The position numbers and the translations under genes are program-made. Of a stretch of DNA of 64,000 nucleotides, positions 42,420 to 60,422 are shown piece by piece. Position 1 is the stretch's first letter; every line of letters starts with the position of its first letter. This DNA comes from Lachnospiraceae bacterium. Its GTDB lineage: Bacteria > Bacillota > Clostridia > Lachnospirales > Lachnospiraceae. The stretch lies in assembly GCA_017614155.1 (NCBI GenBank), contig JAGACK010000040.1, positions 56,717-120,716 on the forward strand, written 5' to 3'. The notes beneath the pieces are model-generated. The model was not told the origin of the DNA and searched no databases. It saw nothing but the letters and a program-made list of their open reading frames with translations.

Positions 42420-44382
42420 CTACTGGATGGATGTATGTGCATTCGTCCTGCTCGTTATCCTCATAATCTTATATCTGACACGGCATTCTGTGAAACTTCT
42501 GCAGAACAGCTTTTTTTATTCCATGGTGATGAGCGCGCTCTTTGCGACTGATTTCAACATACTCTCGGTCGCCGTGAGCGAAGGCGCCCCGTCGCTGCTG
42601 ATGGTTGTCAAGAGCATAGTGCTGTCGCTTGATCTCCTGACAGCTGTGCTTTTCGCATTTTATATCACATCCTATGCGGGCTATCAGGTCAGGAGCAGGA
42701 AGGTGATGAAGGTGCTCTTTCCGCCTGCCATAATATGTGCCCTGGGCATCATCATCAATCCGTTCACCGGGATACTGTATACTGTGGACGGAGGTTACGG
42801 GATCACATGGCAGCCGCTGTCCGTGCTCTACTTCCTGAGCCTTATGTATTATCTGTTCTATACCATTGTTCTTCTTTTGAGAGTCAGGGATACGATGAGC
42901 AGGGAAAAGCTTTTCCTCATTGTTCCTTTCGCGTTCCTGATAAGCTTTGCTTCATATTTCGAATATACCAATACGGAATTTTTAGGGAAGCATTTTGCGG
43001 AAGCGCTTCTCGGGGTCGTCCTGTATTTCGGACTGAGGAACCCTGACGAGCTCTATGATGAGGTGACCGGCATGTTAAATGATGCCGCCCTGACCTCATT
43101 TCTTGAAAAAAGGCTGGTCAGCGACAGGAGGATCTTCATCGTCGCGATAAAGATCCATGATGTGGAACTCTTAAGAAAGACCATAGGAGCAGAGGCCGGA
43201 CAGGGCATGAGAGACCGCATAGCGGAGCTGTTATATGCATATTCAAAGGATACCATGGCTTTTGCGATATCAAGCGGTCTGTACTGCATAGTGACCGACA
43301 GGCCGGACAGGACATATGCCGCGAATATCCAGAATGATCTGAGCGAGAAGCTTTCCAGGACTTTCTATTTTGACAAGGCAAGGGTTGATATCTCATCATC
43401 CCTGTGCCTGATTGAGATGCCGCAGGATGCAAAGGATACCACGGCCCTCATGGATGTCATCCGGCTTTTTGCTGAAGTCGGCGAAAAGAGAAACATGAGT
43501 GTTGTCAGCACGGCCGATCTGGATCTTCGCCACATTGCTTATATGCGTACCATAGACGAGAAGGTCAGGAACGCGATCAGCGACGGAAAGCTGGAGGTAT
43601 ATTACCAGCCGATCTTTTCATGCAAAAAAATGAGATTCGTTGCGGCAGAGGCGCTTCTGCGAATGCATGACGACGAGCATGGGTTTGTTTCTCCGGAGAT
43701 CTTTGTTCCCGTGGCCGAAAACAACGGTTCCATAGTAAAGATAGACAATTTTGTCATAGAACAGGTCTGCAGCATGATATCAAGGAATGACATAAAGAGC
43801 CTTGGCGTTGATTATATCGAAGTCAACCTTTCACCGGGCGACTGCATCCAGGATGATCTGGTAGGAAAGATCAGCGGGCTCCTTGAGCACTATCATATCG
43901 AGCCGTCAAGCATCAATCTTGAGATCACGGAGACTGCGCCGGATGAATTTACCGGCATAGTCGACAGGAATGTGAAGGCCTTAAATGATCTTGGCATCAA
44001 TTTCTCTCTGGATGATTTCGGCACGGGATACTCTTCGTTAAGCCGTATCCTGACCCTGCCGCTAAAGATCATAAAGCTTGACAAGACACTGGTGCAGCCG
44101 GCATTCAGGGCGGAAGCGGGTTCGGGCGATGATGAACGGACAAAGAACATCAAAAACTCAAATCCGAGGCTGATGCTTGAAAGCTATGTCGAGATGATAA
44201 AGAACATCGGGGATGATATCGTTGCGGAGGGAGTTGAGACGAAGGAACAGGCAGAGGAGATCATCAGGATGGGCTGCGACTACATACAGGGGTTTTATTT
44301 TGCACGGCCCATGCCGGAGGCAGATTTCATCAGGGTTTTGAAGGAAGGAAAGATAAAGCAGATAGCGGAACTGCAGGTTTGA
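42409..44382 (+). CDS. Membrane c-di-GMP phosphodiesterase (EAL domain)
   Basis: 657 aa from ATG 42409 (AGGAGG 6 bases upstream, inside the end of the previous gene). About seven membrane helices (1-215) are followed by a GGDEF-like region without GGDEF (about 225-370) and a complete EAL domain (about 395-650). The catalytic set is intact: AAEALLRMHD, INLEITETA, FSLDDFGTGYSSLSRI, IIKLDKTLV, IVAEGVETKEQAE and GCDYIQGFYFARPM. It should hydrolyse c-di-GMP to pGpG in response to a membrane signal. The whole architecture matches the degenerate protein upstream, indicating tandem duplication. Confidence 0.9.
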   Translation: MRYNYWMDVCAFVLLVILIILYLTRHSVKLLQNSFFYSMVMSALFATDFNILSVAVSEGAPSLLMVVKSIVLSLDLLTAVLFAFYITSYAGYQVRSRKVMKVLFPPAIICALGIIINPFTGILYTVDGGYGITWQPLSVLYFLSLMYYLFYTIVLLLRVRDTMSREKLFLIVPFAFLISFASYFEYTNTEFLGKHFAEALLGVVLYFGLRNPDELYDEVTGMLNDAALTSFLEKRLVSDRRIFIVAIKIHDVELLRKTIGAEAGQGMRDRIAELLYAYSKDTMAFAISSGLYCIVTDRPDRTYAANIQNDLSEKLSRTFYFDKARVDISSSLCLIEMPQDAKDTTALMDVIRLFAEVGEKRNMSVVSTADLDLRHIAYMRTIDEKVRNAISDGKLEVYYQPIFSCKKMRFVAAEALLRMHDDEHGFVSPEIFVPVAENNGSIVKIDNFVIEQVCSMISRNDIKSLGVDYIEVNLSPGDCIQDDLVGKISGLLEHYHIEPSSINLEITETAPDEFTGIVDRNVKALNDLGINFSLDDFGTGYSSLSRILTLPLKIIKLDKTLVQPAFRAEAGSGDDERTKNIKNSNPRLMLESYVEMIKNIGDDIVAEGVETKEQAEEIIRMGCDYIQGFYFARPMPEADFIRVLKEGKIKQIAELQV

Positions 44383-44385
44383 TAA

Positions 44386-45990
44386 ATGAAAAAGGATATT
44401 CTTGGAAATAAGATCTATCTCTACCTCACGGAGTTTTTTGCGGGAATGTCGGTGATGGCGGTAGAGCTTGGAGCAAGCAGGCTGCTGGCTCCTTATTTTT
44501 CGTCTTCGCAGATAGTATGGACCATCATAATCGGAACCATAATGATCGCGATGGCTCTGGGCAATGTCTATGGCGGAAAGAGCGCTGACAAAAATCCCGA
44601 TCCCGACAGGCTCTACAAAAGGATCCTCATTGCATCGGTCTGGATTGCAGCCATTCCCCTTGCGGGCAGATATATCATCATAGGCATTTCGGCCCTGCTC
44701 ATACTTACGATAAATGTTAATTTCCTCGTGATAGCAGCCTTTGTTTCCTGCATGATCATCTTTGTGTTTCCGCTATTCCTTCTTGGTACGGTCACTCCTT
44801 CGCTTGCAAGATATACCGTAAAGAGCGTTGATGATTCCGGAAAGACAGTCGGGGCCCTGGGAGCATTCAATACGATAGGCAGCATAATAGGAACCTTTCT
44901 CCCCACCTTTGTGACGATCCCCGCAGTGGGAACATCGGTGACCTTTCTTTTGTTTTCGGCAGTGCTTCTGATACTCGGGCTTATATATTTCATATCAAAC
45001 AGAAGAGGAAAAAAGGCATGCATCATAGCTGTCATACTCTATGTGATCTGCATGGTCTTCGGACACGGCGACAGTTTTGCTTTCTGGGAGAATGATCTGC
45101 TGTTTGAGGGGGAGTCGGTATACAATTACCTTCAGGTAAAGGAAAATGAAAAAGAGATCCTCCTTTCAACCAATGTGCTCTTTGGAGTGCAGTCAGTCAA
45201 AAGAAAAGATGATGAGCTCTCGGGCATGTATTACGATTACGCCATGGCCGCTCCCGTGATGGCAGGGATCAGGGAAAAGAAAGATCCCCGGATGCTGATC
45301 CTCGGCATGGGCACGGGAACTTATGCTTATCAGTGTGACAGATATTTTGACAACATGAAGATCGAAGGTGTGGAGATCGACGGAAAGATCACGGATCTTT
45401 CAAAACAATATTTTGGAGCGCTTGATAATGTGCCGGTCTATACCTATGACGGAAGGGCTTATCTTGACTGCGTGAAAGAGAAATATGATGTCATCATGGT
45501 GGATGCCTACCAGGATATCTCGATTCCTTTTCAGATGTCATCCGTTGAATTTTTTTCTTCCGTATATGATCACCTGAATGAGGACGGTGTCATGGTCGTC
45601 AACATGAACATGAGATCCGACGGGGAGGATAATATAAACGGGTATCTTTCGGACACCATCGCAAGCGTCTTTCCTTCGGTGTGTACCATGGATGTACCGG
45701 GCTTCACCAACCGCGAGCTTTTTGCGATGAAGAATGGTGAATGCAAAAAAGCGCTTGCAGACAATTCTTCCGGCATATCCGATCCGGGATTTGAAACCCT
45801 TATGAAGCAGACTGCATCCCTCCTGACAGATCACAAAAAGGGAACACATATATTTACGGACGACAGGGCGCCGGTAGAGCTTTTGGGCATGAAAGAGATC
45901 GACGGCCTTATCAGTCACGAAGTCTCTTATTATAAAAACCTCTACAGAGAACAGGGCCTGTCAGCCGTTTTAAGTGACCTGGGAGTATGA
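44386..45990 (+). CDS. Spermidine-synthase-like methyltransferase-fold protein fused to a membrane domain
   Basis: 534 aa. Residues 1-230 hold about seven hydrophobic helices (MSVMAVELGASRLLAPYFSSSQIVWTIIIG at the start). Residues about 235-480 form a spermidine synthase-type Rossmann domain, with MLILGMGTGTYAYQC as the nucleotide loop, IEGVEIDGKI, YTYDGRAYLDCVKEKYDVIMVDAYQD and IPFQMSSVEFF. Such membrane fusions are common but their reaction is often unproven. The aspartates of the aminopropyl site are partly retained. It starts 3 bases after the EAL gene stop and is probably cotranscribed with the pair. Confidence 0.83.
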   Translation: MKKDILGNKIYLYLTEFFAGMSVMAVELGASRLLAPYFSSSQIVWTIIIGTIMIAMALGNVYGGKSADKNPDPDRLYKRILIASVWIAAIPLAGRYIIIGISALLILTINVNFLVIAAFVSCMIIFVFPLFLLGTVTPSLARYTVKSVDDSGKTVGALGAFNTIGSIIGTFLPTFVTIPAVGTSVTFLLFSAVLLILGLIYFISNRRGKKACIIAVILYVICMVFGHGDSFAFWENDLLFEGESVYNYLQVKENEKEILLSTNVLFGVQSVKRKDDELSGMYYDYAMAAPVMAGIREKKDPRMLILGMGTGTYAYQCDRYFDNMKIEGVEIDGKITDLSKQYFGALDNVPVYTYDGRAYLDCVKEKYDVIMVDAYQDISIPFQMSSVEFFSSVYDHLNEDGVMVVNMNMRSDGEDNINGYLSDTIASVFPSVCTMDVPGFTNRELFAMKNGECKKALADNSSGISDPGFETLMKQTASLLTDHKKGTHIFTDDRAPVELLGMKEIDGLISHEVSYYKNLYREQGLSAVLSDLGV

Positions 45991-46023: not shown

Positions 46024-47667
46024 ATGAAATACAGGGAAACGGTAAAAGCTGACAATGAAGGGATCGCTCGCATAAGCAGCCTGGTCCGTGAATATCTCTT
46101 AAAACACAGAACCGAACCGAAGGAAGCGGACAAAATGGCCATTGCCGCGGAAGAGGCAGCAGGGGGAATGGCAGAACAAGCGGGGGAAGATGCATCGATT
46201 GAAGTTGTTATCAGGCCCTTTCCGGATCATGTAAGCGTGATCCTGACATCAAAAGGCAGGGAGTATGATCCTCTAGAGGGCAGCGGGATGGGGGATCTTC
46301 TTGATGATGAAATGGATTACCCGATGCAGCAGGCCATCAGGGGGATCCTGATAAAGTCTTTTGCCGACAGGATGAAGTACCGTCACAAAAACGGAGTCAA
46401 CCGGATCAGCTTTGTTATCTTTCGTTCCCCGAGGGCGCATCTTTACCGTACTCTCGGCGCGATGGCAGCGGCTGCCATCATCGGGCTCATCCTTTCACGG
46501 TTTGCTCCCGGAAGCTTCAATGATGCATTAAGATCATATATCCTTGTGCCCGTTTATACCATTTACCTGAATGCGCTGAAAATGGTCGTCGCGCCGGTGG
46601 TGTTTCTTTCGATCGTTTCCTGTATAGTGCAGTTTTCCGATCTGTCGGAGCTTGGCAGGATCGGGGGACGTACGATGTCTGTCTTTGTCTTTACGACGCT
46701 CATCGCATCTTTGGCGGGCATTGGGCTGTTCTATCTGTTCAGGCCCGGTATCCCTCTGACTTCGGGAGCGGATCTGCAGGCTGCAAAGGATATAACTTCA
46801 CAGACCATGAACATCTCCCTGAAGGACATGATCGTCGGGATAGTGCCGTCTGATTTCTTAGAGCCTTTTGTTTCATCAAACATGCTCCAGCTCATCTTCC
46901 TGGCCGTATTCTGCGGCGTGATCGCAGGCCGTATCGGCAGATACTCAAAAACAGTCACAGACATATTTGAGGCCTTTAATGAGCTTTTTCTGAGGATGAC
47001 AACGGCGATCATATATTTCATGCCGGCTGCGGTATTCTGCTCGATCTGTTCCATGATGCTGACGACGGGAGTCTCGGTGATCGTTTCGGTGCTGGGGATT
47101 TTTGCTACATTTCTTTTAGGCCTCTTGTTCATGATCTTTGTATACTGCCTGATACTCGCATTGTACGGAAGGGTCAATCCCATTGTGTTCATCAGAAAAT
47201 ATGTGCCGACCATGACGCAGGTCTTTTCTGTGGCATCAAGCAATGCGTCTATCCCTTTGAATATGAAAGCGTGTGAGAATCTCGGAGTTCCGAAAAAGAT
47301 ATACTGCCTGACGATACCTCTCGGAGCAACCCTCAATATGGACGGCGGATGTATATACATGGGAGTTTTTTCAATGGCGCTGGCAAAGTCGTACGGCGTG
47401 ACGGTCCCGGCCGCAACGATAGCCGCAATGATAGTCACTATTATCGTCATGTCCATGGGAGCGCCGGGGGTTGCAGGCTCGGGGCTGATATGCCTAAGCG
47501 TCCTTCTTACCCAGATGGGAGTCCCTGCGGAAGCGGTTGCGCTGGTCATGGGAATAGATGCCCTGGTCGGCATGTTCCGCTGCATGAGCAACTGCACGGG
47601 CGATGTCATGACAAGCATCATCGTGGCAAAAAAAGAAAAAGTCCTGGACATGGAAAAGTACAGATAA
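46024..47667 (+). CDS. Dicarboxylate/amino acid:cation symporter with an N-terminal RsbW-like domain
   Basis: 547 aa. Residues about 1-135 resemble the GHKL fold of RsbW-type anti-sigma kinases: ADKMAIAAEEAAGGMAEQAG aligns with their N-box helix, but the usual asparagine is Gly, and RHKNGVNRISFVIF resembles the last strand. The ATP-lid glycine motif is missing, so the domain is probably regulatory rather than a kinase. Residues about 140-540 form a DAACS (SDF-family) transporter with the substrate-site elements SVASSNASIPLNMKACENLG, TIPLGATLNMDGG and a late CMSNCTGDVMTS loop. GGAG precedes the ATG. It is separated from the spermidine-synthase-like gene by 33 bases. Confidence 0.85.
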   Translation: MKYRETVKADNEGIARISSLVREYLLKHRTEPKEADKMAIAAEEAAGGMAEQAGEDASIEVVIRPFPDHVSVILTSKGREYDPLEGSGMGDLLDDEMDYPMQQAIRGILIKSFADRMKYRHKNGVNRISFVIFRSPRAHLYRTLGAMAAAAIIGLILSRFAPGSFNDALRSYILVPVYTIYLNALKMVVAPVVFLSIVSCIVQFSDLSELGRIGGRTMSVFVFTTLIASLAGIGLFYLFRPGIPLTSGADLQAAKDITSQTMNISLKDMIVGIVPSDFLEPFVSSNMLQLIFLAVFCGVIAGRIGRYSKTVTDIFEAFNELFLRMTTAIIYFMPAAVFCSICSMMLTTGVSVIVSVLGIFATFLLGLLFMIFVYCLILALYGRVNPIVFIRKYVPTMTQVFSVASSNASIPLNMKACENLGVPKKIYCLTIPLGATLNMDGGCIYMGVFSMALAKSYGVTVPAATIAAMIVTIIVMSMGAPGVAGSGLICLSVLLTQMGVPAEAVALVMGIDALVGMFRCMSNCTGDVMTSIIVAKKEKVLDMEKYR

Positions 47668-49386: not shown

Positions 49387-51156
49387 ATGAAAAAGAAAAT
49401 CGTTGTATCTTTACTTGTCGGAGCCATCGTTACAGCATCTCTTGCTGGATGCTCATCAGCGGCCACATCTTCACATACGGAAAGGGCAGAGCCCGAGGCT
49501 GTCTGCATCGATCCTTCCTATCCGGAAGAACTCCCGGAATATGAAAGCGCGGCAGATGATGAAGGCTCTTATTATGCTGAAAGCTGTGAAGAAGAATCAT
49601 GCGCTGCGGGCAGCGCGGTAAATGAAAGCATCTGCTTTGACAATTCCTTTGCGGCATCGGAAAGCGCTTCATATAAAGCTGATGCGCAGGAAAGATTATG
49701 CGGCCCGGTCACTGATATGTTCTGCCCCGGATATATCTGTCCGAAGCCTGATCCAAACCGCGGGGAAAACTACAGGAGCGTGGCTGAAAACCCCTTCACC
49801 GATGTTGCTTCATCCCCGCTTTCAACCTTTGGCGCAGACATAGACACCGCAAGCTATTCAAATCTCAGGCGGATGATCACTGACGGTTACACGCTTTCGC
49901 AGATACCGGCAGGATCGGTCAGGACAGAGGAACTTGTAAACTACTTTGATTATGATTACAAAAGCCCGAAAAACGGCGATGCATTTGCGGTGAATGCTTC
50001 CATCATAGACTGTCCGTGGAACAGGGAGACGAAGCTTGTAACCCTGGGGATAAAAGCAAAGGAGATCGGAGAGGTCGAAGATATCCCTTCAAACATTGTT
50101 TTTCTCGTTGATGTTTCCGGCTCGATGAACGATTATGACAAGCTTCCGCTTCTTCAGATGGGCTTTGACATGCTGATAGATGATCTGGATGAGGACGACA
50201 GGGTTTCTATAGTGACCTATGCTTCCGATTCGGATATAGTGATCGCCGGAGTTCCCGGAAATGAGCATACGGCGCTGAAAAAAGCCGTCAACTCTCTTAA
50301 AGCCTCAGGCTCCACAAACGGCGGAGAGGGTATCAGGACCGCATATAAACTTGCAGAAAAGTACTTCATCAAAGGCGGGAATAACCGTGTCATCATGGCC
50401 ACGGACGGGGATCTGAATGTCGGCATCACATCAGAGGATGAGCTTGAGGAACTGATCAGTGATAAAAAAGAAGGCGGTGTCTTTCTTTCGGTTTTAGGCT
50501 TTGGCACCGGAAACTACAATGAGGCAACGCTTGAGACGCTTGCAGATAAGGGCAACGGAAACTATTCCTACATCGACTGCCTTGCGCAGGCAAAAAAGGT
50601 TCTCGTGGATGAATTCAATTCCACCCTTTTCACGGTGGCAAAGGATGTGAAATTCCAGACAGAATTCAACCCGGGATATGTCAAAGAATATCGTCTTGTC
50701 GGCTACGAGAACAGGCAGATGGCATCCCGCGATTTTAATGATGATTCAAAAGACGGCGGAGAGATAGGAAGCGGACATGCCATGACCGTGATGTATGAGA
50801 TAAAGATGAATGACAGTGATGAAAAGGATGACGGTATCTCTCTTCGCTACCAGGATAACAGGCTTTCGGATGACGGGCTCAGATCGGGCGAATGGATGAC
50901 CGTATCCGTACGCTACAAGGAACCTGAGGCCGATGAGTCAAAACTCATATATTTCCCTGTCAGCAGCGGATGCTATACGAAAAACCCGAATCGTGATACA
51001 CTTTTTGCAGCGTATGTTGCAGAGTGCGGCATGATAATAAATGACAGTGAGTATACCGGAAACCTTGACATGCGCGATGTTTCAAAACAGGTTTCAAGGC
51101 TGGATCTGAATGATGAATACAAGGAGGAGTTCCTTGACCTTATCAGACAGCTCTGA
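49387..51156 (+). CDS. Von Willebrand factor type A domain lipoprotein (YfbK-like)
   Basis: 589 aa. The signal peptide ends in the lipobox SLAGCSSA (C22). An acidic, Ser/Glu/Cys-containing linker reaches residue about 130. A YfbK-type pre-domain follows (NPFTDVASSPLSTFGADIDTASYSNLRR). The vWA domain starts near residue 235, with the metal site VDVSGSM near 241. A C-terminal block (YVAECGMIINDS..DMRDVSKQVSRLD) resembles the DUF3520 end of this family. A sigma factor and its likely regulator follow in the same direction, as in many clostridial vWA-sigma clusters. Its ribosome site is sequestered in a strong hairpin. Confidence 0.88.
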   Translation: MKKKIVVSLLVGAIVTASLAGCSSAATSSHTERAEPEAVCIDPSYPEELPEYESAADDEGSYYAESCEEESCAAGSAVNESICFDNSFAASESASYKADAQERLCGPVTDMFCPGYICPKPDPNRGENYRSVAENPFTDVASSPLSTFGADIDTASYSNLRRMITDGYTLSQIPAGSVRTEELVNYFDYDYKSPKNGDAFAVNASIIDCPWNRETKLVTLGIKAKEIGEVEDIPSNIVFLVDVSGSMNDYDKLPLLQMGFDMLIDDLDEDDRVSIVTYASDSDIVIAGVPGNEHTALKKAVNSLKASGSTNGGEGIRTAYKLAEKYFIKGGNNRVIMATDGDLNVGITSEDELEELISDKKEGGVFLSVLGFGTGNYNEATLETLADKGNGNYSYIDCLAQAKKVLVDEFNSTLFTVAKDVKFQTEFNPGYVKEYRLVGYENRQMASRDFNDDSKDGGEIGSGHAMTVMYEIKMNDSDEKDDGISLRYQDNRLSDDGLRSGEWMTVSVRYKEPEADESKLIYFPVSSGCYTKNPNRDTLFAAYVAECGMIINDSEYTGNLDMRDVSKQVSRLDLNDEYKEEFLDLIRQL

Positions 51157-51194
51157 TCAGTAATGTGCGGCTTAACTTAACGGCATAAATCAGG

Positions 51195-51764
51195 ATGAAT
51201 AAAGTGATGCAGGATTTTGAGATCGTCGACCTGTACTGGAGCAGGGACGAAAACGCCATAACCGAGACAAACATCAAATACGGAAGTTATTGCAGGAAGA
51301 TCGCAATGAACATAACGGCAGATGACGGGGATACCGAGGAATGTATCAACGATACCTATCTGTCGGCCTGGAACAGCATGCCCGAAGAACGCCCCCGGAT
51401 GCTGGCGCCCTTCCTTGCAGCGATCGTAAGGAATCATGCGCTTACCATTTTCAGAAAAACACATTCAAAAAAGCGCGGGGCGGGACAGACCGCTCTCGCG
51501 CTTGATGAACTGTCAGAGGTGGCCGGACCCTCAACGACTGAGGATGCAGTGGATATGTCGCTTCTGTCGGGACATATCAATTCTTTCCTGAAGACTCTGG
51601 GTTCAAGAGAGCGCATTGCCTTTGTCAGGCGTTACTTTTATGTCGAACCGCTTTCGGATATAGCCGCAGCGCTTTCGATGTCCGAATCCGCCATGAAATC
51701 ATCGCTTTTCAGGACACGCACGAAACTGAAGGACTATCTTGCAAAGGAGGGTTATGAGCTTTGA
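51195..51764 (+). CDS. ECF-type RNA polymerase sigma factor
   Basis: 189 aa. Sigma-70 region 2 spans about 5-85 (YCRKIAMNITADDGDTEECINDTYLSAWNSMPE). Region 4 spans about 125-180 (LGSRERIAFVRRYFYVEPLSDIAAALSMSESAMKSSLFRTRTKLKDYL), with a clear helix-turn-helix. The ribosome site is poor, suggesting low or coupled translation. Its stop overlaps the TTG start of the membrane protein that follows, the usual arrangement of sigma and anti-sigma genes. Target promoters are unknown. Confidence 0.92.
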   Translation: MNKVMQDFEIVDLYWSRDENAITETNIKYGSYCRKIAMNITADDGDTEECINDTYLSAWNSMPEERPRMLAPFLAAIVRNHALTIFRKTHSKKRGAGQTALALDELSEVAGPSTTEDAVDMSLLSGHINSFLKTLGSRERIAFVRRYFYVEPLSDIAAALSMSESAMKSSLFRTRTKLKDYLAKEGYEL

Positions 51765-52540
51765 ACGGCAATGACCTGATGAATGCCTTAAACGGGCTTG
51801 ATCCGAAATACATAGATGAAGCTGCTTTTGAACTTCATGAAAAAGAAGCATCTGAAAAAAGAGCAAAGACCATACGGTTCAGAAGGACTCTTTTTGTCGT
51901 CATCCCCGCAGCTGCTGCCATACTGATCACAATGACGACCCTGCTTTCTTCGGGAGTGCGCAGGGCAAAGAATGAGAGCGCATCTTTCACTCCTGCAGCA
52001 GATGCTGCCGCAACAGGTGCTGCTGCGCCGGTTTATGAAGAGGAGGCAGCGTCGGAAGAAGCTTCCGATGAAGCTCCTGTTTTTGAGGAAGAAGCTGCTG
52101 ATGCTGCAACAGAGCATTCATATGATGCCGCAGGGGCAGACGAAGCTGTTCAGTTCCCGGTTGCCGGTGAACTGGCAGAAAACTTCATGCCGGAAGCGCA
52201 GGCTGATGAGGAAAAGACGCCGGCTGCTCCGGAGGCTGCTCTAAACTCAGAGAAGAAAAGAGAATCAGAAGACAGAAGGCTCAGGATCGAAAGCGTATCC
52301 TGTGAAAATGGGACGCTGACAGTAAAGATAAAAGGAACCTGGCCGGAGAATGTTTCCGATACCGTATACATCATAACCGGAATAAACGATGACGGTTCGG
52401 AAAAGATCTGCGGCAAAGGAACCGTGGAAAAACTGCCCAAAGGACAGGAACCCCTGAATATAGATATCTCCGGACACGGTCTTGAAAAAGGCGCCTATAC
52501 GCTGTTCATACTTGGGGAAAAGACAGAGTTTGAGATCTGA
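51761..52540 (+). CDS. Membrane protein, probable anti-sigma factor of the adjacent ECF sigma
   Basis: 259 aa from TTG 51761, with AAGGAGG 10 bases upstream. A cytoplasmic part of about 45 residues (DLMNALNGLDPKYIDEAAFELHEKE...) precedes one membrane helix (TLFVVIPAAAAILITMTTLL). Outside lie an Ala/Glu/Asp linker (about 70-165) and a C-terminal domain of about 85 residues (RLRIESVSCENGTLTVKIKGTWP...). The start resembles the cytoplasmic segments of clostridial sigma-linked membrane proteins. Its position overlapping the sigma gene makes anti-sigma function likely, but no zinc-binding ZAS motif is present. Confidence 0.72.
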   Translation: MNGNDLMNALNGLDPKYIDEAAFELHEKEASEKRAKTIRFRRTLFVVIPAAAAILITMTTLLSSGVRRAKNESASFTPAADAAATGAAAPVYEEEAASEEASDEAPVFEEEAADAATEHSYDAAGADEAVQFPVAGELAENFMPEAQADEEKTPAAPEAALNSEKKRESEDRRLRIESVSCENGTLTVKIKGTWPENVSDTVYIITGINDDGSEKICGKGTVEKLPKGQEPLNIDISGHGLEKGAYTLFILGEKTEFEI

Positions 52541-52551
52541 TCACAGAGATT

Positions 52552-53898
52552 TTATTCGACTGTGACTCCGGCCCACCGTCCCCTGCGGTAGGATCCGTAA
52601 AAGGCTGCCGCGCGGAATACCCAGTCTATGTACATCCCGATCCACACACCGAGCACTCCCAGGCTGAAGACCTTTGCGAGAATGATTGCGCTTCCTATCC
52701 GGAATACCCACATTGAAAAGGTGCTGACGACCATGGAATACTTTACCTTTCCGGCAGCGCGCAGTATGTTCGGCGTGCAGAAGCTTTCCGCCCAGAAAAA
52801 CATCGAGCATATGGCGCAGGTTGTAAGAAGCCTGGCAGTTTCAAAATAGGTCGCATCAGACAGCTGATAGAGAAGCAGTATCGGTCTGAGCAGGATCAGA
52901 TGGAGGGACTGGGCTGCAAACTCCGATATAAGCCCAATCCTGTGAAGGAGCCTGCCGTACCGAAGCGTTTCCTTCCTGTCGCCGTATCCGACAGCCTGGC
53001 CTATGACCACGAGCATGGTCTGGCAGACCGCAGACCCCGGCACATTGAAAAATGCGGATACATTTCCGCCAATGGCGTTTGCTGTGATCGCAACCGTTCC
53101 GAATCCGGATATCATGCTGGCAAGCATCAGCTTTCCGATCTGGAACATGCCGTTTTCGATACCGCTCGGGATCCCGATGGACAGTATCCTTTTTATCATC
53201 TTTGGATCGGGGATGAAAAAAGTCTTTGGCGTAAGTGCCAGAACGGGATTTTTTTTCTGCAGGAACCATATCACGGCAAAGGCCGCTATGAAGCGTGAAG
53301 CGGTGGTCGCTATCGCAGCTCCCGCAACACCCATGTTAAATCCGTAGATGAGCAGGGCATTGCCGCCGAGATTGAATATATTCATCACAAGGCTGGCAAG
53401 GAGACTTATCCTGCTGTTTCCCTGGCTCCGAAATACTGCGGCTCCGGCATTGTATGCGCCTAAAGCCGGATAGGACAGCGCCGAAATGAAAAAGTAGGTA
53501 ACGGCGCTTTCCATTACATCTGCTTCGATCTTTCCGAAGATGATCACGATGAGAAATCTGTATGAAAAGAGGATGATGAGCATCAGGCCCAGAGATGATG
53601 TCACGAGAACAAGCATCAGCTGGCCTGAAGCAAGCTTTGCATGCCCTTTGTGATCCTGGCCTATATAGCGGCTTATGATGACTGCCCCTCCGGTGGCAAG
53701 GGCGGAGAGTATCTGTATGAAAAGCACGGATATGGAATCGACCAGGGATATCCCGGATACCGCTGCTTCTCCGCAGGATGCGACCATAACGGAATCAAAC
53801 AGTCCCAGGCTTATCGCAAGAAACTGTTCTCCCAGTATCGGGAGCATCAGTCTGATCATTTTGTTACGGTCAAAAAGGACCGTTCTGTTTTCAGACAT
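52552..53898 (-). CDS. MATE-family multidrug/cation efflux transporter
   Basis: 448 aa with twelve hydrophobic helices. MLPILGEQFLAISLGLFDSVMVASCGEAAVSGISLVDS at the start and AIATTASRFIAAFAVIWFLQKK in the middle are MATE features. It exports cationic compounds using a Na or H gradient. It starts 14 bases downstream of the permease-GGDEF gene stop on the same strand, so the two are probably cotranscribed. This raises the possibility that the signal controls or reports on export. Confidence 0.9.
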   Translation of the reverse strand: MSENRTVLFDRNKMIRLMLPILGEQFLAISLGLFDSVMVASCGEAAVSGISLVDSISVLFIQILSALATGGAVIISRYIGQDHKGHAKLASGQLMLVLVTSSLGLMLIILFSYRFLIVIIFGKIEADVMESAVTYFFISALSYPALGAYNAGAAVFRSQGNSRISLLASLVMNIFNLGGNALLIYGFNMGVAGAAIATTASRFIAAFAVIWFLQKKNPVLALTPKTFFIPDPKMIKRILSIGIPSGIENGMFQIGKLMLASMISGFGTVAITANAIGGNVSAFFNVPGSAVCQTMLVVIGQAVGYGDRKETLRYGRLLHRIGLISEFAAQSLHLILLRPILLLYQLSDATYFETARLLTTCAICSMFFWAESFCTPNILRAAGKVKYSMVVSTFSMWVFRIGSAIILAKVFSLGVLGVWIGMYIDWVFRAAAFYGSYRRGRWAGVTVE

Positions 53899-53912
53899 TT
53901 TTTCAGTCTACC

Positions 53913-56156
53913 TCAATCCGGTTTTTTTCGGGCCCGTTCGGCCTCGGCAAGCTTCATTTCAGCCTTTCTTGAGTACATGAGCTCATCGGCCCTGGTAAAG
54001 ACCTCTCCGAAAGTCCGGTCTTCATCCTTTGCAAAATCGCTTATGCCCACAGCAAGAGAAGAGCCGATCCGGTCAAAAAGATCATCAGACTCGCGGTTTA
54101 GCAGTTCCACAAGCGCAGAGCGGTTTTCGTGATCACTGCCTTCGAGCACGACCACAAATTCATCGCCGCCGATCCTGTAAACAGGGCTGTGTGAAAAAAC
54201 TTTGCAGATCATCCTGCAGTTCAGGAAGATGCATTCGTCTCCCTTTTTGTGTCCTTCATTATCGTTGATTTTTTTCAGATTATTCACATCACATACCGCC
54301 ACTGAAAAGGCCTCGACCGCACCGTTCTTTATACGGGCGTTCATTTCGCTCTCCTTCAGGGAATAAGCCTGACGGTTCTTTACTCCGGTCAGTTCATCAG
54401 TAGTGGCTTTCTTTTCCGCCATTCCGATCAGCTTCGAGCTTTCTTCTTCTCTCTTTTTCATGATCTGATAGTTGCTGATGATGATAGCGGCTGACAGCAA
54501 GAAGATTCCGAAAGAGGCGATCGTGAACAGGGCGTTTGCATTATCTATCTTTTCTGCCTGGAGCTGAAGATAATCCGCCTCAGGATCCTTTTCATCAAAG
54601 TTCCCGGCAATTTCCGAATAATGACGGCGGATCTCTTCCATGGTCTCATCGGTTACTCTCTGAGTCTCTTTTGTGACCCACATCATCGAGGAAAAGAGGA
54701 CGAAAAGCAGGAGAATGACCCATACGATCACGGAATGTCCGTATTTTCCGTCCTTGTCCCGTATAACCAGATTTCTGAAATAGACGAGACCGATGACGGC
54801 CCAGATGGCAAATAGAATATATGATGCGGATTCCATGACATCAAACGACAGAAGGTGGGGGATCAGGATCATGATCACGAAAACGAACATCAAAATGACG
54901 CCTGTAAACCCTGCAGCTTTCTGGGGTTTAAGTCCGTCCTTCTTTGCGTCACGGTATACCGAATATGAAACAAGGGCATATATGAGGGTTGCGCCCAGAG
55001 TTGTGACATCCACTATCCATCCTATTGCGGTCCGGCCAAGGAAGGGAATGAAAACCGACACGGCGGCAACGGCAAATACTGCTTTTGAAGGATTGCCGTT
55101 TTGATCGACTCTGCCAAGGAATCCCGGCGCGCTCTCGTCTCTGCCCGCAGCATACAGGAGTCTTGAAAGAGCCAGGGTATTTCCGATCAGGCTGGTAAGT
55201 ATGGCTCCCAAAAGCGCAGCCATCAGTATTATGACCCCGGCATTTCCCAGATAATGATATGCTGCATAAAAAGCCGGGACTGCCTTCAGACCGGTCAGAC
55301 TGCCCATATCATTTATATAATCGATCCAACTGGTATATTCTTCGGGATAGGCCGAGACCGAAAGAAGCGTCACGCAGATATAAACAGCAGTTGTCATTAC
55401 CACGGATGCAACCAGTATTTTTTTTATCTTTTTTGTTTCAAATGAGTATTCGCCGGAAAAATGCGCTATGTTTTCAAAACCGATGAATGCCCAGGGCGAT
55501 ATGACCGCGATCTTTGCGATCTGCGATATGGCTGCGGAATCAGACTGGAAAAACGGCCTGAAGTCAAAACCGCTGTTTGGATGATATATGAGCGCCAGGA
55601 CAGCACAGAGCGCAAAACCGGCGACAAACAGGAAGGCCGCGGCGATCATGACCGCATTGACGGCTCGTTTGCAGAAGGCGCAGAACAGCCCCGTAACGGC
55701 GACAGCGGCTATTGCCAGGAGCGCTTCGCCAAGGTATACCTCATAACCGAATATCCCGTAATGAAGACCGAAGCGGAAAACATCTCCGGCAAAGAATCTT
55801 GCAAACAGGGGGACTGATGTGATATTTGCCCACAGGATCGATATATAGGTGATGAGCAGGAACCAGCCGGCAAGAAAACCGTGATCGGATCCGCACACAT
55901 TGCTCACATATCTGTATATCCCGCCGGCGTCCTGACATCTGTTTATCATAAACTGCAGATTGTATGCTATGACAAGGATGACGACCATCCCGGCTATAAG
56001 CCCAAGGATGGTCCCTGCCACTCCGGCCTTTGCAAGATATGTATTGCAGGTAACGATAAGAGATCCCCAGCCTATGCTCGTGCCGATGGAGAATGCCCAC
56101 ATGGAGAGCGGTCCGAATCTTTTGTTCAGTTGTCCGTTTTTGTGCTCAGTGTTCAT
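53913..56156 (-). CDS. APC-family amino acid permease fused to a GGDEF diguanylate cyclase
   Basis: 747 aa. Residues about 10-480 form an APC-superfamily permease: FGPLSMWAFSIGTSIGWGSLIVTCNTYLAKAG is the first-helix signature, and SPWAFIGFENIAHFSGE matches the helix 6 region. Two more helices flank an extracytoplasmic loop of about 60 residues (WVTKETQRVTDETMEE..., ending before LFTIASFGIFLLSAAIIISNY). A short coiled linker leads to a GGDEF domain at about 580-735, with DELTGVKNRQAY, AVCDVNNLKKINDNEGHKKGDE and an intact RIGGDEFVVVLEG. The cyclase should make c-di-GMP. The fusion suggests transporter-coupled signalling; the amino acid is unknown. Confidence 0.9.
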   Translation of the reverse strand: MNTEHKNGQLNKRFGPLSMWAFSIGTSIGWGSLIVTCNTYLAKAGVAGTILGLIAGMVVILVIAYNLQFMINRCQDAGGIYRYVSNVCGSDHGFLAGWFLLITYISILWANITSVPLFARFFAGDVFRFGLHYGIFGYEVYLGEALLAIAAVAVTGLFCAFCKRAVNAVMIAAAFLFVAGFALCAVLALIYHPNSGFDFRPFFQSDSAAISQIAKIAVISPWAFIGFENIAHFSGEYSFETKKIKKILVASVVMTTAVYICVTLLSVSAYPEEYTSWIDYINDMGSLTGLKAVPAFYAAYHYLGNAGVIILMAALLGAILTSLIGNTLALSRLLYAAGRDESAPGFLGRVDQNGNPSKAVFAVAAVSVFIPFLGRTAIGWIVDVTTLGATLIYALVSYSVYRDAKKDGLKPQKAAGFTGVILMFVFVIMILIPHLLSFDVMESASYILFAIWAVIGLVYFRNLVIRDKDGKYGHSVIVWVILLLFVLFSSMMWVTKETQRVTDETMEEIRRHYSEIAGNFDEKDPEADYLQLQAEKIDNANALFTIASFGIFLLSAAIIISNYQIMKKREEESSKLIGMAEKKATTDELTGVKNRQAYSLKESEMNARIKNGAVEAFSVAVCDVNNLKKINDNEGHKKGDECIFLNCRMICKVFSHSPVYRIGGDEFVVVLEGSDHENRSALVELLNRESDDLFDRIGSSLAVGISDFAKDEDRTFGEVFTRADELMYSRKAEMKLAEAERARKKPD

Positions 56157-56277
56157 ATTCCGATTTTATAACAAACCTTTGCCGGGGTCAAAAGAATCGG
56201 ATACAAAAAACAGATCAAAAAATTTGCGGATGAACGGATGAAGTGATATTATATGTCCTGAAGGAACAATCAGTGGA

Positions 56278-56312
56278 TCACCTTTTGCTCCTGAAAAAAT
56301 CAAAAAAGGTGA
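56278..56312 (+). promoter_or_regulatory. Possible Shine-Dalgarno-masking hairpin before the PAS gene
   Basis: TCACCTTTT (56278-56286) is complementary to AAAAGGTGA (56304-56312), which forms most of the ribosome site of the PAS gene. The stem is 9 bp with a 17-base loop. Confidence 0.45.
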
Positions 56313-56322
56313 GGACAAAAAA

Positions 56323-56934
56323 ATGATAGACCAGCAATATGATTTGAAAGGAAGTCTGAGAATGAGCGAGGATAGCAGAAAAAGAAGAGACCGTTACGCG
56401 GACGAATTTGCACTGACAAAGTATACTCTCCCTGTCGTATGGCAGATGGCAGAGGTCATCCCCGGAGGATTTTTCATCTACCGTGAGGATGAAAAAAGAG
56501 AACTAATCTATTCAAACAAAAAAGTTCATGAGATATTCGGCTGCAAAAATCTGGCTGAGTTCAAGGAGTATACCGGCTATAATTTCCAGGGCATGGTATA
56601 TCCGGAGGACTTTGAAAAGATCCAGTCGGCTATCGACAGCCAGATAGATTCCGAAGAAGGTGACGGCATGGATCATGTTGTATACCGTATAAAGAGAAAA
56701 GACGGCGAGATCAGATGGGTCGATGATTACGGACACTTCAGCCACTCTCCCGAGTATGGCGATGTTTACTATGTTTTCATAAACGACATTACCGAGGCAA
56801 AAGCAAGCGAGGATGCGGAGAAGACCCTTGAGGCGATCCCTGAAAAAATCGGAAAGATCCTTGAAAAGGCTGCCGAGGGAGATTATGAGGCTGTCAGCGA
56901 AGGACTTGAGGGATTAAAGGAATCTTTATCATAA
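56323..56934 (+). CDS. Stand-alone PAS-domain protein
   Basis: 203 aa. Residues about 40-170 form a PAS fold with a PAC end: GGFFIYREDEKRELIYSNKKVHEIFGC, MVYPEDFEKIQSAIDSQ, VVYRIKRKDGEIRWVDDYGHFS and YYVFINDITEAKASE. A helical tail of about 35 residues follows. No kinase, GGDEF or DNA-binding domain is attached, so it probably acts by protein interaction. It is divergent from the permease-GGDEF gene, 166 bases away. ATG 56323 follows GGTGAGGA; an in-frame ATG at 56362 after AAAGGAAG is an alternative. Confidence 0.82.
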   Translation: MIDQQYDLKGSLRMSEDSRKRRDRYADEFALTKYTLPVVWQMAEVIPGGFFIYREDEKRELIYSNKKVHEIFGCKNLAEFKEYTGYNFQGMVYPEDFEKIQSAIDSQIDSEEGDGMDHVVYRIKRKDGEIRWVDDYGHFSHSPEYGDVYYVFINDITEAKASEDAEKTLEAIPEKIGKILEKAAEGDYEAVSEGLEGLKESLS

Positions 56935-56950
56935 GTATAATAAAAACATG

Positions 56951-56990
56951 CAGCCCCGGGGAAGGTGAAGTCTCCGGGGCTGATTTTTTT
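56951..56990 (+). terminator. Terminator of the PAS gene
   Basis: CAGCCCCGGGGA and TCTCCGGGGCTG form a 12-bp stem with one wobble, followed by ATTTTTTT. Confidence 0.92.
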
Positions 56991-57078
56991 CTTTCATAAC
57001 AACAAGATATAGTGTATAATCTATAAGGTTATGCACATGATATGGTTTTGGTGATGTGGTCAAAGGGACTATTGTACA

Positions 57079-58176
57079 ATGTACGGTTACGGTAACGAGC
57101 AATACCGCCTTTCGGATTCATATAGAAGAAAACGCCCGAAAAAGCTCATATGGATACTTGCAGGCGCAGCGGTCCTTCTGATCGTGGCAGGGCTGATTTT
57201 CACCCTGGTGCATGTGATCAGGGAAAGAAAGGCTGCAGACGACGAAGAAACAAAGGAAATTGCGGTTTCGGAGGCTGCGGCAGCGGCCGGCCCGGTGATG
57301 GTACCGGTGGACACACCTGTATGGCAGGGCGAAGAGGAGAGCAGCATAGAGGAGTATGAGCCGCTTAAAGTTGAGCCGGATGATCGTACAGTCGGGGTCA
57401 GTGACGAGGTTGTCAGCGAATACGCAGTCCTGATCTCTCTTTCGGAAAACCGTGTTGTGGCTGCAAGGAACTGCCGTCAGAAAATGTATCCAGCATCGAT
57501 GACAAAGGTGCTGACCGTACTGGTCGCAGCCGAGAATTTAAGGGATATGAGCGCTCTTGATGATATATTTGAGATGACGCAGGCTATAGAAGGCTTCAGC
57601 TATGAGAACGGATGCAGCAATGTAGGCTTCATGCCGGGTGAAAAGATACCGGTAAAGGATCTTTTTTACGGTACGATCCTTCCGTCGGGAGCCGATGCGG
57701 CAATGGGGCTTGCGGAATATATTGCAGGTTCTCAGGAGGCCTTTGTCGACATGATGAACGAAAAGGCGGCAGAGCTTGGGATATCGGAGACATCACATTT
57801 TACAAACTGTGTGGGCCTCTATGATGACGAGCATTACACAACGGCCATGGATATGGCGGTCATAATGGATGCGGCCATGAAAAACGATGTCAGCCGCGAG
57901 GCCCTGACGCGCCATATCTATACTACGACCGCAACCGCAGAGCATCCTGACGGGATAACGGTTTCCAACTGGTTTTTAAGAAGGATAGAGGACAAGCAGG
58001 AAACAGGCCAGGTCCTGGGGGCAAAGACGGGTTTTGTCAATCAGTCAAAAAACTGTGCCGTAAGCTATGGCGTGTCGGATGAGGGAAAACCTTTCATCTG
58101 TGTTACGGGCTCTTCTTCAAGCTCCTGGCGCTGTATCTATGACCATGTTGACATATACACAAATCTTGCGTTCTGA
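57079..58176 (+). CDS. D-alanyl-D-alanine carboxypeptidase (DacA/PBP5 family)
   Basis: 365 aa. One N-terminal membrane helix (LIWILAGAAVLLIVAGLIFTLVHVI) anchors the protein, followed by an acidic linker. The S11 peptidase domain starts near residue 110. The SxxK motif is S140-M-T-K143 in PASMTKVLT, and KTG is in GAKTGFVNQ. The second motif reads SGAD (203-206) instead of the usual SGN. It trims the terminal D-Ala of peptidoglycan stem peptides. It lies just upstream of a glycosyltransferase gene. An AAGGG and a TATAAT at 57015-57020 lie upstream. Confidence 0.88.
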   Translation: MYGYGNEQYRLSDSYRRKRPKKLIWILAGAAVLLIVAGLIFTLVHVIRERKAADDEETKEIAVSEAAAAAGPVMVPVDTPVWQGEEESSIEEYEPLKVEPDDRTVGVSDEVVSEYAVLISLSENRVVAARNCRQKMYPASMTKVLTVLVAAENLRDMSALDDIFEMTQAIEGFSYENGCSNVGFMPGEKIPVKDLFYGTILPSGADAAMGLAEYIAGSQEAFVDMMNEKAAELGISETSHFTNCVGLYDDEHYTTAMDMAVIMDAAMKNDVSREALTRHIYTTTATAEHPDGITVSNWFLRRIEDKQETGQVLGAKTGFVNQSKNCAVSYGVSDEGKPFICVTGSSSSSWRCIYDHVDIYTNLAF

Positions 58177-58216
58177 TTGGAAAATGGACAGGACACCTGA
58201 TAATAAAGAACGAAAA

Positions 58217-59449
58217 ATGAAAGCAGCACATTTTTGTACAACCGATTTCGGAGGAGCTTTCAGGGCAGCATCACGGATCAACAGTGCCATGCGGCTTTGC
58301 AATGCCGATTCATCGCTTTTTGTGAGGACTAAGACCCGCTCTGATACGGACTGTACCGGGATCATCGATACTCCCGTAAAGAGTTTTGTATCAAAGTCGA
58401 AAAACCTTGCAAACCTCATGCTGTCCAAAGGTGAAGTGATCACCGACCGGTTCGGCACAGACATTACAAAAACGCAGGCGGCAAAAAACGCCGATGTGAT
58501 CATCCTTCACTGGGTAAATTCCTTTGTATCTGCAGGCACGATAAAGAAACTTGCGGAAAGCGGAAAGCCTGTGATATGGGTCATGCACGACATGTGGCCG
58601 TATACCGGCGGATGTCATCACGGCTATGGCTGTGAAAGGTATGAAGAAGGCTGCGGGAAATGTCCATTCCTTAAAAGCACAGATGAAAATGACCGTTCGA
58701 GAAAGAACTTCCTTCAAAAACAGGAGGCGCTTAAAGGATCCGGCTTTGCCATTGTTTCGCCGAGTATCTGGAATAAGGAATGCTCTGAAAAAAGCGGCAT
58801 CATGGCGGGACTTCAAAAGCATGTGATCAGAAATCCCATAGATACAAAGATATACAATCCGCAGGGAGATCCGTACCTGATACGAAAGAAACTCGGGCTG
58901 CCGATGCACAAAAAGCTGATACTCTTCGGAGCCATGGTCCAGTCCGTGCACAAATGGGAAGGCATGCAAATGGTGGCAGAGGCAGTGGCTCTGCTTCCCG
59001 CTGATATTAAAAAGGACTGTGAGCTTTTATTGTTCGGAAACGCCCCGGGCATGGATCTTTCAGTATTTGATATACCTGCCAGATCGCTCGGACACATAGA
59101 CGGAGAAAAAGAGATAGCAGATATATACCGGGCAGCGGATGTATTCATATCACCCTCGGTCGCGGACAATTATCCGAACACCCTGCTTGAGTCCATCTGC
59201 TGCGGTACGCCCTGTGTATGCTTTGACATAGGCGGGATGGGGGATCTGGTAAAGACCGGAGTTACCGGATATCTTGCGGCGCCGAAGGATACAGGGGATC
59301 TTTCAAAGGGCCTTTTCGCTGTTTTTGACAGTGACCTGAAAGAAAAACTTAAAAGTCCCGAGCATAATAAGAACCTTTCTGACAATTCCTATGATATAAT
59401 AGGCAGGCAGTATGTAAAGCTTTGCGAAGAGTTGATGGATAATGGCTGA
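58217..59449 (+). CDS. Glycosyltransferase, GT4-like
   Basis: About 410 aa from ATG 58217; an in-frame ATG at 58184 is possible and neither has a strong ribosome site. The start MKAAHFCTTDFGGAFRAASRIN is the usual N-terminus of this group. WVMHDMWPYTGGCHHGYGCERYEEGCGKCPFL is a characteristic cysteine-rich block. The GT-B C-terminal half includes LILFGAMVQSVHKWEG, DIYRAADVFISPSVADNYPNTLLESICCGTPCVCFDIGG with the conserved E of the E-x7-E type motif. It likely transfers a sugar to a surface glycan. It overlaps holA by 8 bases. Confidence 0.88.
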   Translation: MKAAHFCTTDFGGAFRAASRINSAMRLCNADSSLFVRTKTRSDTDCTGIIDTPVKSFVSKSKNLANLMLSKGEVITDRFGTDITKTQAAKNADVIILHWVNSFVSAGTIKKLAESGKPVIWVMHDMWPYTGGCHHGYGCERYEEGCGKCPFLKSTDENDRSRKNFLQKQEALKGSGFAIVSPSIWNKECSEKSGIMAGLQKHVIRNPIDTKIYNPQGDPYLIRKKLGLPMHKKLILFGAMVQSVHKWEGMQMVAEAVALLPADIKKDCELLLFGNAPGMDLSVFDIPARSLGHIDGEKEIADIYRAADVFISPSVADNYPNTLLESICCGTPCVCFDIGGMGDLVKTGVTGYLAAPKDTGDLSKGLFAVFDSDLKEKLKSPEHNKNLSDNSYDIIGRQYVKLCEELMDNG

Positions 59450-60422
59450 TATTTCTGCTGATATAAAAACAGGCGAATTCAAGAATGTTTACCTGATCTA
59501 CGGGGAAGAGAGATATCTTCGTGAAAACTATGCGGGCAAACTATTAAAGGCGCTGGTCGCTCCGGGCGACAACCTGAATTTTTCAAAATTCGAGGGAGAT
59601 ACATCAGATATAAACGAGATACTGTCTCTGGCGCAGACCCTGCCCTTCATGGCGGACAGGCGCGTTGTCTTCGTAAAGGATTCGGGATTGTTCCATAAAG
59701 CCTGTGATGAGCTTTTTGATTATCTTGAGGCGCCTGCTGAAGATACCGTGCTCATCTTTGATGAAGAAAATGTTGACAAAAGAAGCAGGAACTACAAGGC
59801 TGTATCAAAGCTGAAAGGCGATGTGAACGCGGCCCCGATGACCGGAGATGCTCTCAAACGCTGGGTCGCTGCCTGTTTTTCAAAAAAATACGGCAAAAAG
59901 ATAAGGGAATCCACGGTTGAGCTTTTGATGTCAAGAGCCGGGACTGACATGTCCGTGCTTTCTTCCGAGATCGCAAAGCTTTCAGGCTATGTCGGACAAA
60001 GAGAGATCATCGAGGATGCGGATGTAGTGACAATGACAAACAGGAACCCTTCCGGCAGCGTATTTGAGATGATAGAGGCTATGACATTAAAGAAGCAGAA
60101 GGAGGCCGTTTCGATCTATTACGAGATGCTTGAGGCGAAGGAAAGCCCCTATGGCATCCTGTCACTTATAGAAAGGCAGTTTAGGATCATCTACATCGTA
60201 AAGGAACTGACGGAAAAAAAGGCATCAAAGCAGGAGATCGCGTCCGCGGCAGGCATAAAGGATTACTTTGTCCCGAAATATCAGAGACAGGCAGCAAAGT
60301 ATTCCAGGACGAAGATCAGACAGGTGCTTGATGAATGCGCGGGGGCGGATGCCGACAGCAAATCCGGCAGGATAGCCGACACTCTTGCGGTCGAGCTTTT
60401 GATAATCAGGTTTTCTTCTTGA
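59442..60422 (+). CDS. holA: DNA polymerase III delta subunit (clamp loader)
   Basis: 326 aa. NVYLIYGEERYLRENYAGKL is the domain-I start, FADRRVVFVKDSG-like strands follow (PFMADRRVVFVKDSGLFH), and GNPSGSVFEMIEAMTLKKQKEA-type sequence marks the hinge (NPSGSVFEMIEAMT). The C-terminal helical domain ends GRIADTLAVELLIIRF. It opens the beta clamp in the clamp-loader complex. It starts within the end of the glycosyltransferase gene. rpsT, often found nearby in other Firmicutes, is not seen. Confidence 0.94.
   Translation: MADISADIKTGEFKNVYLIYGEERYLRENYAGKLLKALVAPGDNLNFSKFEGDTSDINEILSLAQTLPFMADRRVVFVKDSGLFHKACDELFDYLEAPAEDTVLIFDEENVDKRSRNYKAVSKLKGDVNAAPMTGDALKRWVAACFSKKYGKKIRESTVELLMSRAGTDMSVLSSEIAKLSGYVGQREIIEDADVVTMTNRNPSGSVFEMIEAMTLKKQKEAVSIYYEMLEAKESPYGILSLIERQFRIIYIVKELTEKKASKQEIASAAGIKDYFVPKYQRQAAKYSRTKIRQVLDECAGADADSKSGRIADTLAVELLIIRFSS

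Follow-up and report, generated by a model that had tools for sequence, protein, structure and literature searches.

The closest described counterparts of the gene reported here are the SLC5-STAC kinases CbrA, CrbS, MxtR and RpuS, in which a LeuT-fold transporter stands first and a cytoplasmic output last in a single polypeptide (PMC13022988, PMC7918813). CbrA consists of an SLC5 domain leading through STAC to a kinase; its ligand is an amino acid, histidine is transported, and the signal that activates it has yet to be settled (PMC13022988, PMC7918813). In the Amt-kinase fusion Ks-Amt5 transport has been lost, and ammonium switches the kinase on by binding, without being carried across (PMC5764959). 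S-component/5TMR sensor kinases use a membrane fold common to transporters and receptors and have been termed, under a strict definition, the first prokaryotic transceptor case (PMC11109136); transceptors as such are described as rare (PMC13022988, PMC11109136). The gene analyzed here lies in a window of 64,000 nucleotides from a Lachnospiraceae bacterium (contig JAGACK010000040.1, positions 56717-120716) and encodes a 747-residue protein in which an APC-type permease is joined to a GGDEF domain; we consider it likely that this is a receptor-type diguanylate cyclase with the permease as its sensor.

The protein shares with the SLC5-STAC kinases the order of transporter and output, and with Ks-Amt5 the apparent use of a transporter fold as sensor for a fused output (PMC5764959). 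It differs from the former in being APC rather than SLC5/SSS (no SLC5/SSS match in Pfam at E 0.01), in having what is read as a hairpin of two transmembrane helices (TM13-loop-TM14) in the place where those kinases have the STAC linker, and in ending in a cyclase rather than a histidine kinase, and from the latter with its Amt fold, ammonium ligand and kinase output. Three PDB entries (8qj3, 8qj4, 8qpf) list a chain under the name ammonium transporter, whose GGDEF region aligns to residues 580-683; the present protein is APC and not Amt (no Amt match in Pfam at E 0.01), and no paper on these entries was found in the open-licence literature. AdiC, LAT1 and GkApcT have the same fold as residues 3-477, but their matches stop after TM12 and leave adaptor and output unmatched. 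The S-component/5TMR fold differs from that of APC permeases. In the broad sense of a transporter fold and a signalling output in one chain, the protein is a transceptor. Titles and abstract beginnings of the papers listed from the open-licence literature yielded no APC-family permease fused to GGDEF or to a kinase, an architecture that domain databases may nevertheless list. The transporter-fused receptor type is thus already known (CbrA, Ks-Amt5, Amt-GGDEF), whereas the APC-family version, with its unusual range of outputs, is undescribed in the literature searched. The gene and its parts are the following.

53913..56156, minus strand: whole gene, APC permease - TM13/TM14 adaptor - GGDEF, 747 residues in a single frame (Pfam)
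54759..56132, minus strand: APC-type 12-helix permease domain, residues about 9-466 (Pfam, AlphaFold model, Foldseek/VIA-align, conservation)
54462..54734, minus strand: adaptor of TM13, an extracytoplasmic stretch of about 49 residues and TM14, residues about 475-565 (model helices)
54405..54470, minus strand: signalling helix that links TM14 to the GGDEF domain, about residues 563-584 (part of an unbroken helix, 526-584, in the model)
53955..54407, minus strand: GGDEF diguanylate cyclase domain, residues 584-734 (Pfam, 74.3 bits against a cut-off of 23.8; active-site positions conserved)
54156..54170, minus strand: GGDEF active-site motif, residues 663-667; RIGGDEFVVVLEG is present in the sequence

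The permease-GGDEF fusion is real, conserved and modular. The open reading frame (ORF) runs uninterrupted in one frame from ATG to stop, and Pfam places AA_permease (PF00324) at residues 22-455 (100.3 bits; cut-off 24.6), AA_permease_2 (PF13520) at 14-431 (96.4; cut-off 27) and GGDEF at 584-734, all above the curated cut-offs, with nothing beyond the two APC families and GGDEF at E 0.01. An earlier note, made from the sequence alone, had proposed such a fusion in one ORF, and the search of other genomes for co-occurrence of both domains bears it out: 43 distinct complete proteins of this build were found including that of the window, hence 42 from other genomes, whose 12-helix core is 45-62% identical to the window's. 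The extracytoplasmic loop, put at roughly 60 residues in that note, instead comprises about 49 (497-545) between TM13 and TM14.

The same permease module carries many other outputs. The host genome (2.64 Mb, 59 contigs, 94.67% complete, 30 GGDEF places) has, in a search with PF13520 alone, two loci of this family, both fused to GGDEF; the second encodes a protein of 1166 residues with PAS_4 and GGDEF. In the same genus, the permease part is present, among the rows listed, in 29 of 48 genomes at E 1e-70 or better, and the full-length permease-GGDEF in 8 of 48; among the remaining 21, 16 have histidine kinases instead, mostly hybrid and of about 975 residues. A contig scan took the best 80 of at least 568 confirmed relatives, which may include plain permeases, as 79 loci. 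Altogether 150 module ORFs were classified with local profiles, a set that includes loci fetched twice and fragments at contig ends, so that the class counts below are not prevalences; Pfam scans of example proteins match the classes.

GGDEF: 50 ORFs (plus 2 open-ended)
HisKA-HATPase-REC: 33 ORFs (plus 1 open-ended)
PAS-GGDEF: 10 ORFs (plus 2 open-ended)
GGDEF-REC-EAL: 10 ORFs
PAS-histidine kinase (HK)-REC-REC: 7 ORFs (plus 1 open-ended)
GGDEF-REC-GGDEF-EAL: 6 ORFs
GGDEF-GGDEF-EAL: 2 ORFs
EAL: 1 ORF (open-ended)
HK-REC-REC: 1 ORF
doubled HATPase match: 1 ORF
shortened variants: 6 ORFs
no recognised output: 12 complete and 5 open-ended ORFs

A few GGDEF-class ORFs (877-1032 residues) have an extra unmatched stretch ahead of GGDEF. 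The 12 complete ORFs with no recognised output include four plain permeases (L038, L140, L142, L149) and six fragments or broken frames. Another of the 12 (L084:3935-6298, plus strand) is a module fused to HD_5, of HD-GYP type; the two known types of c-di-GMP (cyclic di-guanosine monophosphate) phosphodiesterase, EAL and HD-GYP, thus both seem to be represented in the family. Yet another, from a same-genus genome (L039:1154-3265, minus strand), joins a distant APC permease to a cytidylate-kinase-like domain (PF13189).

That the permease is an exchangeable input module is indicated by comparison of the parts. On a tree of permease parts, from which ORFs of <450 residues, identical permease parts and open-ended ORFs without output were excluded, the output class changes 22 times, against a minimum of 6 and a shuffled mean of 72.6; output is therefore neither random nor fixed on the tree. 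The window protein and L041 are sisters (support 99) within a clade of 37 rows (support 100) that mixes GGDEF, PAS-GGDEF, PAS-HK-REC-REC and EAL types, with the same-genus GGDEF proteins (L002-L009, minus L008 of PAS type) in a different clade. The strongest argument for the permease as input is that parts as much as 83% identical carry different outputs (PAS-HK-REC-REC in L065, GGDEF in L045, PAS-GGDEF in L048) and that GGDEF domains diverge more than the permeases they are joined to: between the window protein and its own-genome paralogue, GGDEF is 38-41% and the permease about 56% identical. Likewise, L045 and L055 have permeases at 60-61% and GGDEF domains at 36-38%. Three other GGDEF places of the host genome are 39-42% identical to the window GGDEF, as is the paralogue's; for this paralogue a single permease-GGDEF origin followed by PAS insertion is not favoured, its GGDEF being no closer than these three. 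Occurrence of the same permease module on histidine kinases, EAL and HD-type domains, as an exchangeable input, strengthens the transceptor reading first put forward in the note.

The note had also named the APC core helices as a point to be checked by modelling the fold, and the full core is present. The AlphaFold model and the structure matches place a LeuT-type 12-helix fold in the permease half, in which TM1 is broken close to G29-W30-G31 and TM6 close to G226-F227-E228. A first model from an 8-row input was poor (predicted local distance difference test score, pLDDT, 67.8) and was replaced by the later one. Foldseek and VIA-align gave matches to AdiC, LAT1, ApcT and GkApcT, and the 50 matches listed all lie inside residues 3-477. 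NCBIfam models for BcaP, 2A0306 and 2A0302 scored far below their cut-offs on the permease, and no ligand could be assigned from them. By eye, there is no lysine in mid-TM5 of the window protein, 7 other fused rows or 10 plain rows, a position occupied by lysine in ApcT.

Plain permease relatives of about 480 residues (L140, L142, L149 and others from the phylum sample) allowed a comparison of 10 plain with 125 fused rows, the fused groups omitting 2 of 127 (L008, L084). Two sets used in the analysis were reduced: set A2 holds 22 of 30 proteins (without L006, L007, L015, L017, L021, L037, L038 and L039) and set A3 110 of the 118 rows listed (without L015, L017, L021, L067, L084, L100, L103 and L137). 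G29, G31, N111, G226, G374, R375 and D383 are present in all 135 rows. Other positions separate the two groups: E228 is found in 125/125 fused rows (D in 8 and G in 2 plain ones), W109 in 124/125 and T386 in 123/125 (neither in any plain row), and N326 in 111/125 (F in 10/10 plain); position 231 is S, A or T in at least 122/125 fused rows and P in 10/10 plain ones. The P-Q after TM6 and the F326 of the plain relatives (each 10/10) are thus replaced in most fused members. Aligned by eye, W222, E228, N111 and N326 correspond to AdiC W202, E208, N101 and W293. Given the shared invariant residues and those specific to the fused class, the ligand site seems to be kept but retuned in that class.

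Between permease and output, the model has two long helices (475-516 and 526-584), which are read as a membrane hairpin common to GGDEF, PAS-GGDEF and most kinase members. The adaptor had no match above the Pfam cut-off and no relevant match in the PDB, and was rejected as a known domain on these searches. From N562 to D587 inclusive there are 26 residues in 38 of the 43 permease-GGDEF proteins, 22 in three and 19 in two.

The GGDEF domain itself is predicted to be an active cyclase, its catalytic positions being intact. D623, L627, K628, N631, D632 and H636 are present in 43/43 permease-GGDEF proteins, D640 in 40/43 and R661 and K731 in 42/43; by comparison with PleD, D623, N631, D640, R661 and K731 are the metal, guanine and phosphate residues. 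The motif is present in 42 of 43; the exception, L068, deviates around residue 660 and looks frame-shifted. The RxxD inhibitory site, a common and not a defining feature whose position was taken from PleD, is absent: F654 and S657 stand in its place, S657 in 43/43. This suggests that classical product inhibition does not operate.

Since the same transporter part is joined to many signalling outputs, the fused permease probably works as a nutrient receptor, and its ligand is probably an amino acid. The ligand, an amino acid or another small solute like it, would bind centrally, in the site that TM1 and TM6 enclose, and its occupancy would shift the equilibrium among outward, occluded and inward states. 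The TM13/TM14 hairpin may then move or rotate, probably within a dimer, and the signalling helix would align or separate two GGDEF domains and so set c-di-GMP synthesis.

It is possible, though on the whole unlikely, that the protein is a working transporter in addition to a sensor, so that the amino acid is still imported or exchanged and turnover, not occupancy, drives the cyclase. The intact APC core and TM1/TM6 backbone motifs fit such a role, as does histidine transport by the SLC5 domain of CbrA, for which turnover is among the options discussed (PMC13022988), but the genome has its AA_permease_2 loci, two in all, only as fusions to signalling domains, the plain-type residues after TM6 and at 326 are mostly gone, and Ks-Amt5 offers a precedent for transport lost in a fusion (PMC5764959). 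We favour a receptor that transports its ligand productively to a small extent at most. That ligand binding has been lost and the permease merely localises the cyclase as a membrane anchor would agree with the lack of a known ligand; it is improbable, since positions of the ligand site are strongly conserved from one output class to another, class-specific residues of TM3, TM6 and TM8 among them, and since the core of the 42 other proteins is closer to that of the window protein than an anchor requires. Slightly more improbable still is control in the reverse direction, with the GGDEF half regulating the permease and the nucleotide state gating transport: the kinase, EAL and HD-type domains on the same module have no single nucleotide product in common, and in the model the linker prolongs TM14 as one helix, the usual arrangement in ordinary sensors. 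Two separate genes joined by chance or by a sequencing or assembly error, which a 59-contig draft genome might invite, can be dismissed, because single-frame fusions recur in 43 distinct complete ORFs with the spacing largely kept, in a paralogue of the same genome and in records labelled neither metagenome-assembled genome (MAG) nor uncultured: AD3010 (L083, GGDEF), AC2029 (L090, GGDEF-REC-GGDEF-EAL, on a contig of 3.86 Mb) and NK3B98 (L049, PAS-GGDEF).

Several observations weigh against the receptor reading or narrow it. The final structure model is a monomer with no ligand, and the plain comparison set comprises 10 permeases only. N326 is not a clean marker, the plain-type F occurring in 3 of 37 kinase rows, and at two positions the window protein deviates from its class, with A for E444 and G for E235. 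W30, invariant in fused rows, occupies the position of the Ser in AdiC's G-S-G motif, and the binding mode may accordingly differ from that of AdiC. Of the 33 complete HisKA-HATPase-REC proteins, 10 match the module no further than profile position 470-514, which indicates that the TM13/TM14 adaptor is missing or different there. The tree, of 134 distinct permease parts, was a quick one without bootstrap.

More tentatively, and with somewhat more doubt than confidence, the module may represent an undescribed and very large bacterial receptor family, in which an APC permease, extended by the TM13/TM14 adaptor, has abandoned transport for amino-acid sensing and, across several phyla of gut and rumen bacteria, is freely combined with outputs that are cyclases, EAL/HD-GYP phosphodiesterases, histidine kinases or hybrid kinases. 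If so, no prokaryotic transceptor family known would have more diverse outputs. How transporter state is coupled to output is not settled by isolated examples like CbrA, and one module, up to 83% identical, on both cyclases and hybrid kinases makes it directly accessible how a conformational change of the LeuT fold is converted into a signal. An amino-acid input to c-di-GMP would also be named for Lachnospiraceae and other gut bacteria, in which, to our knowledge, little is known of such inputs.

The module was found in 34 of 397 family genomes sampled (E <= 1e-80), and 34 of the 44 listed family places lie in open frames of at least 750 residues. In a phylum sample it was present in 10 of 398 genomes; 14 places there lie outside the family, 10 of plain-permease size (411-532 residues) and four larger (815-848). 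Going by record titles, relatives come from groups of Bacillota, Chloroflexi/Anaerolineaceae (L042-L044), Treponema and Spirochaetales (L072, L081, L092, L096), Coriobacteriaceae, Eggerthellaceae and Atopobiaceae (L071, L084, L095, L111, L119) and Sutterella (L070, L078), many of them from rumen or gut metagenomes. Within the genus to which the Treponema locus L081 belongs, 20 of 146 genomes have the module. On the tree the three Treponema rows form a group, as do the three rows from Chloroflexi and likewise L111 and L119, which argues against mis-binning in these cases; L072, L071, L084 and L095 are isolated, and the Sutterella cases are two MAG contigs only. Spread by plasmid or phage was rejected, as no record had a place covering 80% of the query among 2194 matching plasmid and 78 matching phage records. 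PADLOC gave no match, and Rfam none in window positions 50000-60000.

Two neighbours named in the note, a MATE exporter gene beginning 14 bases past the stop and a divergent PAS protein upstream, are both present by coordinates and Pfam; they contribute little to the transceptor reading.

52552..53898, minus strand: MATE exporter, 14 bases downstream of the fusion stop (Pfam)
56323..56934, plus strand: divergent PAS_3 protein, 203 residues (Pfam)

Two of the 164 loci, L001 and L158, contain the window gene; among the remaining 162, with flanks mostly of 1.5-4 kb and some stopping at contig ends, a MATE match (E 1e-10; 22-24% identity) was obtained in L100 and L107 only; a functional unit with MATE as a conserved feature was therefore rejected. 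PAS domains 40-52% identical to the PAS_3 protein lie near six other module loci of 164 (L011, L026, L082, L087, L101, L103). The domain starts larger frames in L082, L087, L101 and L103, whereas in L011 and L026 the locus stops before the frame does; in L101 and L103 the PAS frame lies immediately upstream, in divergent orientation. The PAS_3 protein is a possible associate of the fusion.

Ahead of the fusion gene, at 56163-56191 on the minus strand, lies a promoter-like TTGACC-17-TAAAAT whose end is 6 bases from the ATG; promoter-like elements in the region number 8, close to the shuffled mean of 6.3. If the element is real, the mRNA would be nearly leaderless. Elsewhere in the window, two overlapping plus-strand frames at 40476-44382 encode GGDEF-EAL (with a weak GGDEF) and then EAL, followed at 44386-45990 by a 534-residue protein with a spermine-synthase domain. 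A sodium:dicarboxylate symporter is encoded at 46024-47667 (plus strand); its SDF domain takes up residues 141-536 only, the N-terminal stretch of about 140 residues having no Pfam match at E 1e-5. In L150, L151, L159 and L160, module genes of about 815-848 residues neighbour each other; the two scanned, L150 and L159, end in HATPase without REC, with HATPase below the cut-off in L150. A CheB-methylesterase-type protein adjoins the module genes in L159, and a similar-looking frame is present in L160.
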